From assembly GCA_019429305.1 (NCBI GenBank), contig JAHYIR010000004.1, positions 1 through 64,000 of the forward strand: a stretch of 64,000 nucleotides of DNA, in the 5' to 3' direction. The number at the start of each line of letters is the position of its first letter. Within the stretch, counting starts at the first letter, position 1. A program made the translations under genes and the position numbers. This document shows positions 2,051-7,700 of this stretch, piece by piece. Under the pieces are notes generated by a model. That model was not told the DNA's origin, made no database searches, and was given only the letters and a program-made list of their open reading frames with translations. The DNA comes from Candidatus Cloacimonadota bacterium. GTDB lineage: Bacteria; Cloacimonadota; Cloacimonadia; Cloacimonadales; JAJBBL01.

Positions 2051-4645
2051 ATGAAAAAAATTCTCCTCTTGAATCTACTGCTTATTAGTGCTGTAATGCT
2101 ATTGGGACAGTGGGATAAAGTTGACTTAAATACCGCTACTCTCGAAGAATTAAAGAGTTTACCGATCACTAATGAGCAGGCAGAAGACATTTATGATTAT
2201 CGTCATTATATCTCCTTTTTCCGGACGATTTACGACTTGCGCAACATTCCATCAATTGATCAGGAAACGATGCTGAAGTTACGTCCATTGGTCTCAATAT
2301 CCTATTATGATGATATGGATGAAGCAGCCCAAAGAAGGGAAGAGATAGCATATTTGATCGAACGTTACGGAAGTTATGAGGGAGAGCAAGAAGCATTGGC
2401 TGATATCTGGGAAGATTATTTAATGACCCCTCAGAATCTCAATCGTCTCTCCTATACCGATATTGCTAATATGCCTAATGTTTCTCCTTTAGATGCAGCA
2501 GCTATTATTCGCCGACGCAATTTAGGTGAAAAAATAGTCGATTATCGTGATCTGCGTAACACATCAGGTATTTCCTATTATGGAGCAAGTAACCTGCGAC
2601 ATTACATCTATTATGCTGAAGATGAAGAACGAGTAGGGAGACTATTTGTTGATTATCAGTTAAGATATAACGATCGAGAGTATTTCGAAGAACCTGAAGC
2701 TATGCTCAAAGAGCTTGTAGTTGAGCAAAATGGACCGAGGAGACGAGATCTCAGTTACTGGGGCTTTTTTGATTTGGGTAGGCATACTGCAGAAGTTACT
2801 AATAAGCTTCGTATTCGTTATGAAAACAGGTTTAAAGCAGGATTATCATATACAACAAGGAGAGGAGAACCGACTTTAATGGATGCCAATTTCCGAGATA
2901 TCTGGGATAATGGTAAGATGTATGTTGGTTGGGAAGATTATGTAGATCTATGGGGTGATAATTCCATGAAGCTATATTTCGGAAACTATCGGGCAGCTTT
3001 TGGAGAGGGGTTGGTCATGGAAAATACAGATTTTTATAGTGCCCGAAAAACCGGATATGGCTTCTCAAAACGCCTTACCGGAATCTATGGTGATGTTTCT
3101 ACTACCCAACAGTATTCTCTAAGAGGTTTAGCTTTCGAATGGAAAAGACCGATGCTGGAATTAGCTCTGTTTGGTTCGATTGATAAGAAGGATGCCCTTG
3201 TTCATCTCGATGCCGAGGGAAATCCCACAGATGAAGTATTCTCTCTGATCACAATGACTAACAGATTTGATGATGATGAATTAGCACAGTTTGAAGACCA
3301 TGTTTATAATAACAGCAACATGCTCCGTAGGATGTGGTTAGCACCGAGAAAAGATTTTGTTGAAGAGAAACTTTTTGGAGGCAACATTGCCTTTTCACCA
3401 TTCGTAGGAACGCATATCGGGTTTTCAGGTTATGAAGCTATATATGATAAGGACTTCGTGCTTATTCCGGAAGATCCTATATATTCCGATCTACCGAGTG
3501 TCTTGATTCGCGAAAGCCGCAATTATCCTAAATTTAAGCTTATAGATAGTGAAATAGCCAATCTATACTCTACAAAGACAGATGAATATGAGAGAGATTA
3601 TCGTCGTGTCTTGGGTTTGAACTGGCGTACTGTTATAGGGAATACATCTTTTCAAGGTGAGTATGCAGAACTTTCTGTTACTGGAAATGAACTACAGATC
3701 GGTGATGATCCTAAAGCTATGGTGGTTAGTTCTTATACCCAATTCGAGAATTTCAATTTCATAGTTCTCTACAGAAATTATGATCTTGCATTTGATAATC
3801 CCTATTCCAGAGGTTTCTCCGAACATCCAAAATTCAGGAATTCACTTTTAGATAGTAATGCTCACACTTTAGTTAATCCGTTGATAGCAGATATGTATCT
3901 TAATTCGGCACAAGCTCAAGCGGAAGAGGGTGTTTATTTCGAGACCAGATACCGTTTTCATGAAAAGTTTACTATCACCCGAGCTTATTTAGATCTCTGG
4001 GAAAGAAAAGCTGATTCCAGAAAGAGTGTCAGATTCCAGGGTGAACTGGAGTACCGACCGATCTTCAGGTTAGTTTCCAGATTAAGATATAAACATCAGA
4101 TCAATCGTTATGATGACGATGCCGACCGTGGAGTATCGAAAACTGATGAAACTACTGCCTTCATCAGAGCAAATCTTTCTAACAGGGACAGGATACATCT
4201 GGAATATCGCTATAATCGTGTTTGGATGTCACCATATACGTATTTAGCCAATAATCCGATACCCGATGGATTTGATATAGCTCAAGGTACTATGCTGATA
4301 CATGGAGACTATATCTGCGTTGATTATACACATAACTTTAATCAGAATATGAAGATTCAGGGTTCATTCATTTTCTGGGATGGACACGGGATCAGTCATT
4401 GGGATTGGGAAGATATGGAGATAGATTTTATGGGAATGCAGGGGATGAAGTACTGGTTAACTTTCTATGACAGGATTTCCAGTAACCTTTATCTCACCCT
4501 AAAATATAGAATAAAACGCTATAAGACACGCGATCTTGATATGCGTGCTTGGTGGAATTCGCCCGTAGATGGTATAAACGAAAACTATACTACTGTCTGG
4601 AAACAGGTTAACAGTATCAGATTACAACTAGATTGGAAATTTTAA
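2051..4645 (+). CDS. Helix-hairpin-helix protein with a probable C-terminal outer-membrane beta-barrel
   Basis: This is an 864-residue protein. Residues 1-20 are a signal peptide. Residues 22-85 are a ComEA-like helix-hairpin-helix unit (VDLNTATLEELKSLP). A second, diverged HhH unit lies at 128-185 (LNRLSYTDIANMPNVSPLDA). From about residue 195 to the end there are alternating polar and hydrophobic strands rich in Tyr, Trp and Arg. The last residue is Phe (LQLDWKF), as expected of barrel proteins inserted by BamA. ComEA-type HhH units bind DNA in competence systems, so DNA or nucleic-acid binding at the surface is possible, although HhH folds can also be purely structural. The start is supported by GGAG 6 nt upstream. 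The gene is first in an operon with the next two. The barrel assignment is inferred from sequence pattern only. Confidence 0.65.
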   Translation: MKKILLLNLLLISAVMLLGQWDKVDLNTATLEELKSLPITNEQAEDIYDYRHYISFFRTIYDLRNIPSIDQETMLKLRPLVSISYYDDMDEAAQRREEIAYLIERYGSYEGEQEALADIWEDYLMTPQNLNRLSYTDIANMPNVSPLDAAAIIRRRNLGEKIVDYRDLRNTSGISYYGASNLRHYIYYAEDEERVGRLFVDYQLRYNDREYFEEPEAMLKELVVEQNGPRRRDLSYWGFFDLGRHTAEVTNKLRIRYENRFKAGLSYTTRRGEPTLMDANFRDIWDNGKMYVGWEDYVDLWGDNSMKLYFGNYRAAFGEGLVMENTDFYSARKTGYGFSKRLTGIYGDVSTTQQYSLRGLAFEWKRPMLELALFGSIDKKDALVHLDAEGNPTDEVFSLITMTNRFDDDELAQFEDHVYNNSNMLRRMWLAPRKDFVEEKLFGGNIAFSPFVGTHIGFSGYEAIYDKDFVLIPEDPIYSDLPSVLIRESRNYPKFKLIDSEIANLYSTKTDEYERDYRRVLGLNWRTVIGNTSFQGEYAELSVTGNELQIGDDPKAMVVSSYTQFENFNFIVLYRNYDLAFDNPYSRGFSEHPKFRNSLLDSNAHTLVNPLIADMYLNSAQAQAEEGVYFETRYRFHEKFTITRAYLDLWERKADSRKSVRFQGELEYRPIFRLVSRLRYKHQINRYDDDADRGVSKTDETTAFIRANLSNRDRIHLEYRYNRVWMSPYTYLANNPIPDGFDIAQGTMLIHGDYICVDYTHNFNQNMKIQGSFIFWDGHGISHWDWEDMEIDFMGMQGMKYWLTFYDRISSNLYLTLKYRIKRYKTRDLDMRAWWNSPVDGINENYTTVWKQVNSIRLQLDWKF

Positions 4646-4670
4646 GAAATATATAATTACAGGGGGATAG

Positions 4671-5978
4671 ATGAAGAATATCTTTTTATGCATCATATTG
4701 ATCGCTTTAGTAGGGCATCTGTTTTCATATTCATTGTATGAGAATTATGAGCTGGGAATAGGAAAACGAATTACTCACCTTGATGCTCGTAGTGCAGCAA
4801 TGGGAGGAACAGGTACAGCCAGCGGGACAAATATCTTTGATGGGATGCTCAATCCTGCTAATATAGGTTTTCTCAACGACGGATTAGGTTTTCAGTTTGT
4901 CTTTGATGTAACCCAGCTGGAAGAGAACCGTTCTATGCCGATGTGGAACTTCTTCGATAGTTATGTAGATGATGCGACTTATGTCAGCAATACAAATTTC
5001 TTTACCGATTTTGGATTAGCAATGTCCTACAAGCATAGATTCGGTAATCTGTCAATTGCCGGAGCTTTGGATTATAAGCCATTTGTGAATTTCGATGCTT
5101 ATTATGAAGAGCAGGTAAGAAATAATGAAGGTTCTGATAATGATAATTACCCTCCGTTGTTAGCAACTAACTTCTTGGAAAATGACGGAAATATTTACTC
5201 TTACGGTGTTACTGCCGCTTTTACTTATCATCGTTATGACATACTCTTTAATGAAACATCTTTAGGTTTTAATCTTAATATGCTTTCCGGGAAATCTCGT
5301 TCGGAAAGAAAGATTATCTGGTCTGACTATTCTAAAGATGCTGCTGTTGTTGACGATTATGAAATACGATGGGGCTATGATTATAGTGGGTTGAATTTCA
5401 GTATTGGTTTAAAATCCGAGATTTCTCAGAGGATAAGTGCCGGGATCATGTACGCACCTAAATTCGAGATGACTGTGGAAGATGCCTTCAGTGATTTAGA
5501 TCATGATTTCGATTATCCTGCTTCACTCAGACTGGGTGTTCAATACAGACCGAGAAATGTTTTAAGAACGACTTTCCACTTTGACCTCGAGTTTGTTAAT
5601 TGGTCAGATATATCGGATTTCTATGATAATGTTATGAATTATTATCTTGGGGTAGAACATATATTCCCACATGCTGTACCTTTAAGATTGGGATTTAGTT
5701 ATGTTACCAGCCCCTCATCATCTGAAACAGATATTCCTTCTCCGATAATTAATCCCATAATATCGGCAGGAACTGGGTTTAGAATTTATGGAGATTTCTT
5801 CCTCGATCTGTCAGGCGAGTTTACTCATCGAAAGTATGACACTATGGATCTCTTCCCGGATGGATATTATAATTATTCCGAGTTATGGAATAATTACACG
5901 CCAGAAAACAGAACAGAGCCTGATACGGTTAGAGAATATTATGTTCGGGTAAAGAGCTCCTTAACATTTAAATGGTAG
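4671..5978 (+). CDS. Outer-membrane beta-barrel protein of the PorV/FadL-like type
   Basis: This is a 435-residue protein with an N-terminal signal peptide (1-19). The N-terminal segment ARSAAMGGTGTASG...NPANIGF matches the start typical of PorV/PorQ and OMPP1/FadL-related barrels (AMGG...NPA). The remainder is beta-rich with many aromatic residues, and the chain ends SSLTFKW, an aromatic terminus typical of outer-membrane barrels. PorV proteins act with type IX secretion in Bacteroidota, but this subgroup also includes proteins of unknown role. Assignment to secretion is therefore only a possibility, supported by the sorting-domain proteins in this window. GGGGG lies 6 nt before the ATG. The gap to the upstream HhH gene is 25 bp, and the stop overlaps the ribosome-binding region of the nucleotidase gene. 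Confidence 0.65.
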   Translation: MKNIFLCIILIALVGHLFSYSLYENYELGIGKRITHLDARSAAMGGTGTASGTNIFDGMLNPANIGFLNDGLGFQFVFDVTQLEENRSMPMWNFFDSYVDDATYVSNTNFFTDFGLAMSYKHRFGNLSIAGALDYKPFVNFDAYYEEQVRNNEGSDNDNYPPLLATNFLENDGNIYSYGVTAAFTYHRYDILFNETSLGFNLNMLSGKSRSERKIIWSDYSKDAAVVDDYEIRWGYDYSGLNFSIGLKSEISQRISAGIMYAPKFEMTVEDAFSDLDHDFDYPASLRLGVQYRPRNVLRTTFHFDLEFVNWSDISDFYDNVMNYYLGVEHIFPHAVPLRLGFSYVTSPSSSETDIPSPIINPIISAGTGFRIYGDFFLDLSGEFTHRKYDTMDLFPDGYYNYSELWNNYTPENRTEPDTVREYYVRVKSSLTFKW

Positions 5979-5983
5979 GAATT

Positions 5984-7666
5984 ATGAAACAACTTAAAAT
6001 ATTACTTATATTAGCCGGATTGCTGGTAATATTCAATCTGGCTGCTGAAGAGCTACTGCTCGATATTATGTTTACGAATGATATACATGGTGGAATGGAT
6101 AGGGTAGAGGCGACCTTTATCAATCCGGAGTTTCCACCCATTCTCGGTGGTGGTGGCTCCCATGCCCGCTATATCAAAATGGTCAGAGATAAAGCAGATG
6201 GGGTAACAAGAGACAACCTACTTATAGATAACGGCGATTTCTTTATGGGTCGCCCTTTAGGCACAAAAACCGAAGGTCAAGCAATCGTTGATTATTTCAA
6301 TATGGTCAGCTATGATTATGTGTTAATAGGTAATCATGAATACGATTTAGGCGAAGAACGGTTGATCGAATTGCTGGAAGATGCTGAATTTACTACTCTT
6401 GGCGCAAATATTGTATTTGAGGACACAAAAGAACTCGTTCCCTATGTCAAACCTTATGAGATTATCGATAAGATGGGAGTCAAGATTGCGATTATTGGTT
6501 TGACTACTTCAGATACGGCTTTGATGAGCTTTCCTGATCATATTCGGGGGTTGGAATTTTTACCCCCTGAAGAAATATTGGGAGATCTGATTGCAGAAGT
6601 CCGCGAAAAAGGTGCTGATATAGTTATCGTTGCCGGTCACATGGGTTTACCTTATGAACCATTAGAAGGTTTTGAAGAAAGATATGGTAAAAATGCCGAT
6701 CCGAACAGAGAAAGACGATGGGGCTATGATGCACAGGAATTGGCTCATGAAATACCAGGGATAGATGTCTTTATAGCCGGTCACATGCATCGCGGGTTTA
6801 ATGAACCTTGGGTTGATCCTCTGAATCATACATTAGTATTTCAAGGATGGGCTTACGGAAGTTCAATAGCTCATGTTACTCTTAAAATAGATCAAGCGAC
6901 TAAGACTATTTCCGGCTATGAACTACCATCACTGTATGGTGGAGCATTGATTTCAACTTTTGAAGAGGAATTTATCCCAGTTCCGGAAGTTGGTGCTGAA
7001 ATAGCCAGACAAACGGCAATTGCCGAAGAGGGTATGGATGATGTTATCGGGGTTACTGAAGTCTATTTATCCCGTGCGGGTGTAGATGCCCAGAACATTA
7101 TCGGTAACTTTGTCTGTGACGCTATTCTGGAATATGCCGAAGCTGATTTTGCCTTTATAAATCTTGGTGGTATTCGTGGAGAAATTGGGGTCGGTGCGAT
7201 TACCTATCGTGATATTTATAATGTAATGCCTTTTGATAATCAGCTGACTGTTTTAGAGATCGAAGGTACTATCTTAAAAGATATCTTAGAAACACGTGTT
7301 GCCGGAACAAGAGCAGGTTTGAGAGTTGCAGGGATAACAATGGTCTATAGCAGAAGAAGAGATGACTTTGATCGCGTAACCAAACTTCTTATTGGCGGAG
7401 AACCATGGCAAGCGGATAAGATATATCGGGTTGCTACAAGTGATTTCCTGGTTGAAGGTAATGCCGGTCTTACTCTGCTGACACGGATTCCCGAAGCACA
7501 GATCATCCGCTACGAAACCAATCTTCGGGATGCTTTAGTTGCTTATGTGCAAAATAATTCTCCAATCAGAACGAAAATGGATAACCGTTGGGCTCGAGAC
7601 GATAACTCAGTACCAACAAAAGAACTTTTACAAGAATTGCAGAAGATCTCTACTAGTTTAAGATAA
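5984..7666 (+). CDS. Secreted 5'-nucleotidase / 2',3'-cyclic phosphodiesterase family (UshA-like)
   Basis: A signal peptide (1-21) precedes a calcineurin-like metallophosphatase domain with metal ligands visible as FTNDIHGG (Asp33, His35), NGD (84-85), GNHEYD (116-121), AGHMG (217-221) and AGHMHRG (265-271). The C-terminal 5'-nucleotidase domain runs from about 345 to 560, with NLGGIRGE and MPFDNQL at the substrate pocket. It should release phosphate from extracellular or periplasmic nucleotides. An in-frame ATG at 5972 exists but lacks a ribosome-binding site. ATG 5984 has TAGGA just upstream and gives a better signal peptide, so it was chosen (560 residues). It is the last gene of the surface operon and is followed directly by a strong terminator. 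Exact substrate specificity cannot be read from the sequence. Confidence 0.88.
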   Translation: MKQLKILLILAGLLVIFNLAAEELLLDIMFTNDIHGGMDRVEATFINPEFPPILGGGGSHARYIKMVRDKADGVTRDNLLIDNGDFFMGRPLGTKTEGQAIVDYFNMVSYDYVLIGNHEYDLGEERLIELLEDAEFTTLGANIVFEDTKELVPYVKPYEIIDKMGVKIAIIGLTTSDTALMSFPDHIRGLEFLPPEEILGDLIAEVREKGADIVIVAGHMGLPYEPLEGFEERYGKNADPNRERRWGYDAQELAHEIPGIDVFIAGHMHRGFNEPWVDPLNHTLVFQGWAYGSSIAHVTLKIDQATKTISGYELPSLYGGALISTFEEEFIPVPEVGAEIARQTAIAEEGMDDVIGVTEVYLSRAGVDAQNIIGNFVCDAILEYAEADFAFINLGGIRGEIGVGAITYRDIYNVMPFDNQLTVLEIEGTILKDILETRVAGTRAGLRVAGITMVYSRRRDDFDRVTKLLIGGEPWQADKIYRVATSDFLVEGNAGLTLLTRIPEAQIIRYETNLRDALVAYVQNNSPIRTKMDNRWARDDNSVPTKELLQELQKISTSLR

Positions 7667-7673
7667 GTTAATC

Positions 7674-7700
7674 AAGGGCAGTTTATAACTGCCCTTTTTT
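7674..7700 (+). terminator. Intrinsic terminator of the 2051-7666 operon
   Basis: The stem AAGGGCAGTT / AACTGCCCTT (7674-7683 with 7687-7696) has a 3-nt loop and runs into T6. It begins 7 nt after the nucleotidase stop codon. Confidence 0.92.

Follow-up and report, generated by a model that had tools for sequence, protein, structure and literature searches.

We analyzed a 64,000-nucleotide window at the start of a contig (C4; JAHYIR010000004.1) from the 2.39-Mb genome of a Candidatus Cloacimonadota bacterium, and found that three of its genes, P1, P2, and P3 (positions 2051 to 7666, plus strand), are one half of an outer membrane module that is conserved across phyla. P1 encodes a predicted outer membrane barrel preceded by helix-hairpin-helix (HhH) units, P2 a predicted FadL-fold barrel, and P3 a secreted protein of the 5'-nucleotidase family. 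The full form of the module is U > Qp > P1 > P2 > P3, where Qp is a PorV-like protein and U a protein with OB-fold, LTD, or DUF5689 domains. The conservation of this module is solid. Literature searches, in a library without subscription papers or preprints, turned up no paper that we recognized as an account of these genes. For its function we favor an outer membrane machine in which a giant barrel is partnered by FadL-fold proteins and which captures or processes nucleic acids, a reading to which we assign a probability of about one half. An original prediction, made from the DNA letters, had proposed nucleic acid capture and processing for the three genes of the window.

P1, P2, and P3 form a core operon of Cloacimonadota

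The operon consists of three plus-strand open reading frames (ORFs) of 864, 435, and 564 amino acids: P1 at 2051 to 4645, P2 at 4671 to 5978, and P3 at 5972 to 7666. P1 and P2 are separated by 25 nucleotides, P2 and P3 overlap (gap of -7 nucleotides), and a single intrinsic terminator follows on the plus strand (7674 to 7696; 10 pairs followed by a T-run). It ranks first in strength among the 6 detected over the two strands, where 3.9 were expected. The three-gene operon was thus read correctly in the original prediction.

We searched 58 Cloacimonadota genomes, the window's own included, for P1 (E ≤ 1e-3) and found a match in 53 and a clear orthologue in 52, the full-length orthologues being 47 to 59% identical. 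The match in G041 was weak, and there was none in G001, G006, G011, G014, or G019; several high-completeness genomes are without P1. Gene order was compared in the best 80 of 212 loci, counting as testable those with at least 500 nucleotides of room downstream for P2 (n = 73) or at least 2000 for P3 (n = 65). P2 follows P1 in 71/73 and P3 in 64/65; the misses are L080 (no P2), L084 (a P2 match past the distance limit), and L083 (no P3). Gene order is therefore conserved, so the original prediction is not refuted on that count, and the retention of the operon through the phylum makes it more than a chance arrangement. One record titled Armatimonadota (L036) has a P1 with 56% identity to that of the window; it is probably a mislabelled or mis-binned contig.

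The operon belongs to a larger cluster in other phyla

A profile search of 386 genomes recovered full-length P1 homologues in genomes related to the window's only at the domain level, and we took 24 such loci from outside the phylum. They include two near-duplicate pairs (L149/L150 and L170/L171), one locus without room upstream (L165, at a contig end), and one without room downstream (L155). Models for P2, P3, and Qp were partly built from these loci, and Cloacimonadota-only models already caught most of the matches. The order of the distant cluster is that of the full form: Qp, of about 285 amino acids, lies immediately 5' of P1 in 22 of the 24 loci, and P2 and P3 lie 3' of it in 18 and 11, respectively.

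We scanned U, the gene upstream of Qp, in 19 of these loci, omitting L150 and L171 as near copies of L149 and L170, L165 because of the contig end, and L168 and L172, where other genes stand in that place. An OB-fold (PF01336), LTD, or DUF5689 domain was present in 18/19 (Pfam, E ≤ 0.01); the 19th, at L169, has only a FlgD_ig sorting-type domain and a marginal ExeM match. Of the 19, 14 matched the ExeM/NucH nuclease model in its OB part (E ≤ 0.05), and the alignments cover no more than roughly its first 130 positions out of 546. The catalytic EEP part was never matched in U, nor was any Pfam nuclease. U thus has in common with ExeM/NucH nucleases the OB-fold region, often with a lamin-tail domain, but not a matched catalytic domain. 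A C-terminal domain typical of the type IX secretion system (T9SS; FlgD_ig, Por_Secre_tail, or CHU_C, E ≤ 0.01) occurs in 13 of the 19 distant U proteins, and none was detected at the Pfam level in the U of the window's genome. A PLD-like protein lies beside the cluster in two genomes (L170/L171).

The module is split in the window's genome

In the window's genome the orthologue of Qp (Qp2; L179:6474-7316, 281 amino acids; 298.6 bits, next best 103.5) is unlinked to the P1 operon. It lies directly 3' of a U gene of 1074 amino acids with DUF5689, a sub-threshold OB fold, and CHB_HEX_C domains. U and Qp2 are adjacent in 30/30 Cloacimonadota loci, this one included, and within the stretch of U that was compared, conservation is highest over the last 40 residues. 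Qp2 is absent from 4/6 genomes without P1 and from 6/52 that have it (Fisher p = 0.006, or p = 0.047 when only the 49 best genomes are counted; neither value corrected for relatedness), and all 6 genomes without P1 are missing a P3 match at E ≤ 1e-60. That the parts stand in one cluster elsewhere and at two loci here is strong evidence of joint function, and the co-absence agrees with it. The genome also encodes ComEC and a homologue of SprA, the T9SS translocon (G000:C6:26041-30219; 535.9 bits combined).

A second HhH-barrel protein, of 615 amino acids, is encoded directly after a 262-amino-acid PorV-like gene. The pair (L130:7609-10222, on G000:C1) recurs in relatives, with an upstream gene of about 250 to 270 amino acids in all 15 loci whose ORF lists were read. 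By profile comparison, the second HhH-barrel and P1 are homologues, with the barrel and the second HhH unit as the matching region (E 2.8e-19), and P2 resembles the PorV-like protein of about 260 amino acids weakly (probability 17%). A plasmid search with P1 gave no match; one with the 615-amino-acid paralogue gave four Bacteroidota records. In one of them, Parabacteroides distasonis NZ_OY725801.1, the relative of the paralogue has a PorV-like gene directly upstream (75.7 bits), and no such gene was detected beside the relatives in the other three. This P. distasonis protein, filed as a "helix-hairpin-helix domain-containing protein," has HhH units ahead of a large barrel-like region, as P1 does, but it is 686 amino acids long and lacks an adjacent P2 or P3.

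Predicted structures of P1, P2, and P3

P1 starts with a predicted signal peptide (about residues 1 to 20, cleavage site approximate; 2051 to 2110), and a hydrophobic N terminus immediately ahead of an HhH unit is also found in its orthologues. Two (HhH)2 units follow, the first at residues 22 to 81 (2114 to 2293; hairpins LPITNEQA and IPSIDQET, no GhG) and the second at about residues 129 to 190 (2435 to 2620; hairpins PNVSPLDA and SGISYYGA), and PF12836 (HHH_3) matches in two stretches (E 4.4e-14; 52.8 bits, cut-off 27). In the AlphaFold model, with a predicted local distance difference test score (pLDDT) of 81.5 and a predicted template modeling score of 0.78, helices extend up to residue 182 and about 25 strands from residue 198 make up a C-terminal beta-barrel (residues 198 to 864; 2642 to 4642). 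At its C terminus is an aromatic stretch that resembles a beta-signal (LQLDWKF). The model agrees with the originally proposed architecture of signal peptide, two HhH units, and barrel, with the HhH units on the N-terminal side, and the predicted barrels of P1 and P2 fit the outer membrane system that had been envisaged.

A fold search with P1 returned large or porin-like barrels of varied size (FimD: Z 15.4, root mean square deviation [rmsd] 4.6, 375 residues aligned), with no standout among solved structures and the N-terminal 133 residues barely covered. Because these barrels differ in size, we describe P1 only as a large barrel. Against the sequences of solved structures, matches were confined to the HhH part, and no search made matched P1 to SprA or BamA. 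ComEA was ruled out as the identity of P1: the two have the Pfam HHH_3 domain in common, but P1 differs in its hairpins and size, alone has an outer membrane barrel, and scores 43.2 bits against the comEA model TIGR01259 (cut-off 152.35). The genome's own ComEA is encoded elsewhere (211 amino acids) and has GhG in 4/4 hairpins.

P2 is modeled as a FadL-type barrel (pLDDT 89.2). Its nearest structure is BamG (Z 34.8, rmsd 2.6, 342 residues aligned), tied with FadL (Z 34.2); PorV scores 27.9, and BamG, FadL, TodX, and PorV span 27.4 to 34.8. These scores place P2 in the FadL superfamily, so the original description of P2 as PorV-like is imprecise; P2 also missed the cut-offs of PorV_fam (37.7 bits, cut-off 90) and T9SS_OM_PorV (16.5 bits, cut-off 250), and Qp fits the term better. 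Against the BamG equivalog, P2 scored 34.6 bits (cut-off 250). It was ruled out as the BamG of this genome, where another gene scores 107.6 bits and P2 16.4. That BamG-like protein (G000:C2:167186-168280), which also falls under the cut-off, suggests that Cloacimonadota have a BAM partner of the Bacteroidota type. The PorV family model has 13 matches in the window's genome, beyond the need of one T9SS shuttle.

P3 has the two-domain architecture of UshA and CD73, as Metallophos and 5_nucleotid_C both pass their Pfam cut-offs. We aligned 58 copies of the 64 in its cluster, dropping short ones. The metal-binding motifs are invariant or conservatively replaced in 58/58 (E or D in GNHE), and the first base-clamp aromatic is kept in 58/58. 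At the position of the second, solved nucleotidases carry Phe or Tyr (3ivd, GGDGF; UshA, GGDGY), and P3 differs: GGDG[FY] is replaced by GN[AS]GL, and P3 has an extra conserved stretch, ATFxNPxFPP. The register of the clamp was set by alignment to 3ivd and UshA rather than CD73; in the human CD73, the base is clamped between Phe417 and Phe500, according to a portion of PMC8677862. The UshA-like assignment therefore stands for the domains and metal motifs and fails at the second clamp residue, and from its sequence P3 may differ in specificity from solved nucleotidases.

Neighboring features

A divergent ORF on the minus strand (964 to 1386), originally called pseudopilin-like, is real, but its match to the pseudopilin model is weak (TIGR01710, 22.2 bits, cut-off 88.85). 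Homologues of it are present in 23/80 in-phylum loci. Between this ORF and P1, positions 1490 to 1650 hold repeat-like sequence with a tcatctcgactgaa motif and its apparent inverted form. Near the contig start, positions 96 to 698 encode the C-terminal part of a CHB_HEX_C/Fn3 protein, domains that are also found in the U of this genome.

Function of the module

SprA-PorV and BamA-BamG are each described, in passages of PMC12611786 and PMC12618676, as a large barrel with a FadL-fold partner. The overall plan of the module, in which a giant barrel is joined by partners of the FadL fold and by a surface protein of the T9SS type, appears to follow theirs; the likeness is one of plan, and we infer the partnership of P1, complex formation, transport, and the substrate. 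In our model, the type IX system would export U, and Qp, as a PorV-like FadL-fold barrel, would hold it on the surface, where its OB-fold/LTD region could bind extracellular nucleic acid. P1 would be the central giant barrel, with Qp and P2 as its FadL-fold partners, and would pass or gate the polymer. Its periplasmic HhH units would not grip DNA in the canonical way but would act as a docking platform or scaffold, and P3 would dephosphorylate a product in the periplasm.

We favor nucleic acid as the substrate because of the ExeM-type OB folds of U, the role of DUF5689 in Riemerella transformation, and the HhH and nucleotidase domains of the module. The OB-fold region is crucial to the nucleolytic activity of ExeM, according to an excerpt of PMC6085458. 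Transformation of Riemerella anatipestifer needs RA0C_RS04920 (DUF5689) and RA0C_RS02645 (HhH), as stated in part of PMC8459023, and we liken these to U and P1 by description only.

Several findings weigh against this reading. HhH hairpins contact the DNA backbone through a GhG motif, and this motif is missing from the majority sequence of all four P1 hairpins (81 in-phylum sequences); among 22 distant homologues there is a single GFG hairpin (L169). The HhH region has a mean net charge of -7 (range, -15 to +5; the 73 of 81 sequences that are long enough) and is net negative in 21/22 distant homologues. The absence of GhG and the acidic charge weaken the DNA-binding role first given to these units and correspond to what the original prediction had named as refuting it; the units may have been turned into a scaffold. 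In P3, the second base-clamp aromatic is Leu in 58/58, and the P3-like proteins at L170:4769-5674 and L171:11092-11994, each with the PLD-like gene directly 5', have lost the metal ligands and the C-domain. Several U domain matches, many of them OB-fold, fall under the curated Pfam cut-off, OB folds bind other things besides nucleic acid, and nearly all clusters are without a catalytic nuclease. The pairing of P1 and Qp2 has exceptions, with P1 alone in six genomes and Qp2 without a clear P1 in G019 and G041, and the genomes compared are drafts and kin of one another. The proposal of nucleic acid capture is thus weakened in two of its first arguments, the HhH units and P3, and gains independent support from the ExeM-type OB folds of U, outside the window.

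As a more specific and tentative form of the favored reading, the module could be a third outer membrane machine on the SprA-PorV/BamA-BamG plan, found over several phyla, in which nucleic acid is imported through the outer membrane, with no type IV pilus, by an HhH-bearing giant barrel that has a FadL-fold partner on either side (Qp and P2) and is supplied by a type IX-exported OB-fold receptor.

Alternatively, though we find it doubtful, the module could be an offshoot of the type IX system for surface display, in which Qp is a shuttle or anchor dedicated to U, P1 and P2 form an attachment or maturation site, and the ligand is not nucleic acid but, for example, a polysaccharide or protein. 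The T9SS-type C-terminal domains and the strongly conserved C terminus of U fit this role, as do the CHB_HEX_C domains, associated with carbohydrate enzymes, in the U of the window's genome. A cargo gene followed by a FadL-like shuttle gene is also the PorP/SprF pattern, as outlined in a section of PMC12618676. However, surface display leaves P3 and the shared HhH and ExeM-type OB domains unexplained, and P2 is nearer BamG/FadL than PorV.

We consider it improbable that the module scavenges nucleotides or phosphate, in which case oligonucleotides or phosphate esters would be taken up through P1 and P2 as pores and P3 would be the main enzyme. The conserved catalytic motifs of P3 and its place in the operon throughout the phylum agree with scavenging, and in marine bacteria nucleotidases accompany DNA-degradation genes, according to a fragment of PMC8289736. 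But P3 cannot be the core of the module, as 13/24 distant loci gave no P3 and 2 have a degenerate one, and its base pocket differs. A housekeeping role in outer membrane assembly, in which P2 would be a partner as BamG is, is very unlikely, since the conservation of P1 and the structural closeness of P2 to BamG are outweighed by the better BamG match elsewhere in the genome and the absence of P1 from several high-completeness genomes.

The module bears on how DNA passes the outer membrane in this broad bacterial group. For tests in cultivable relatives, it offers named, deletable genes for a large barrel, its FadL-fold partners, and a candidate surface receptor. Should the substrate be something other than DNA, the module would still be a phylum-core, cross-phylum outer membrane machine whose central family is filed only under the name given to the P. 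distasonis protein.

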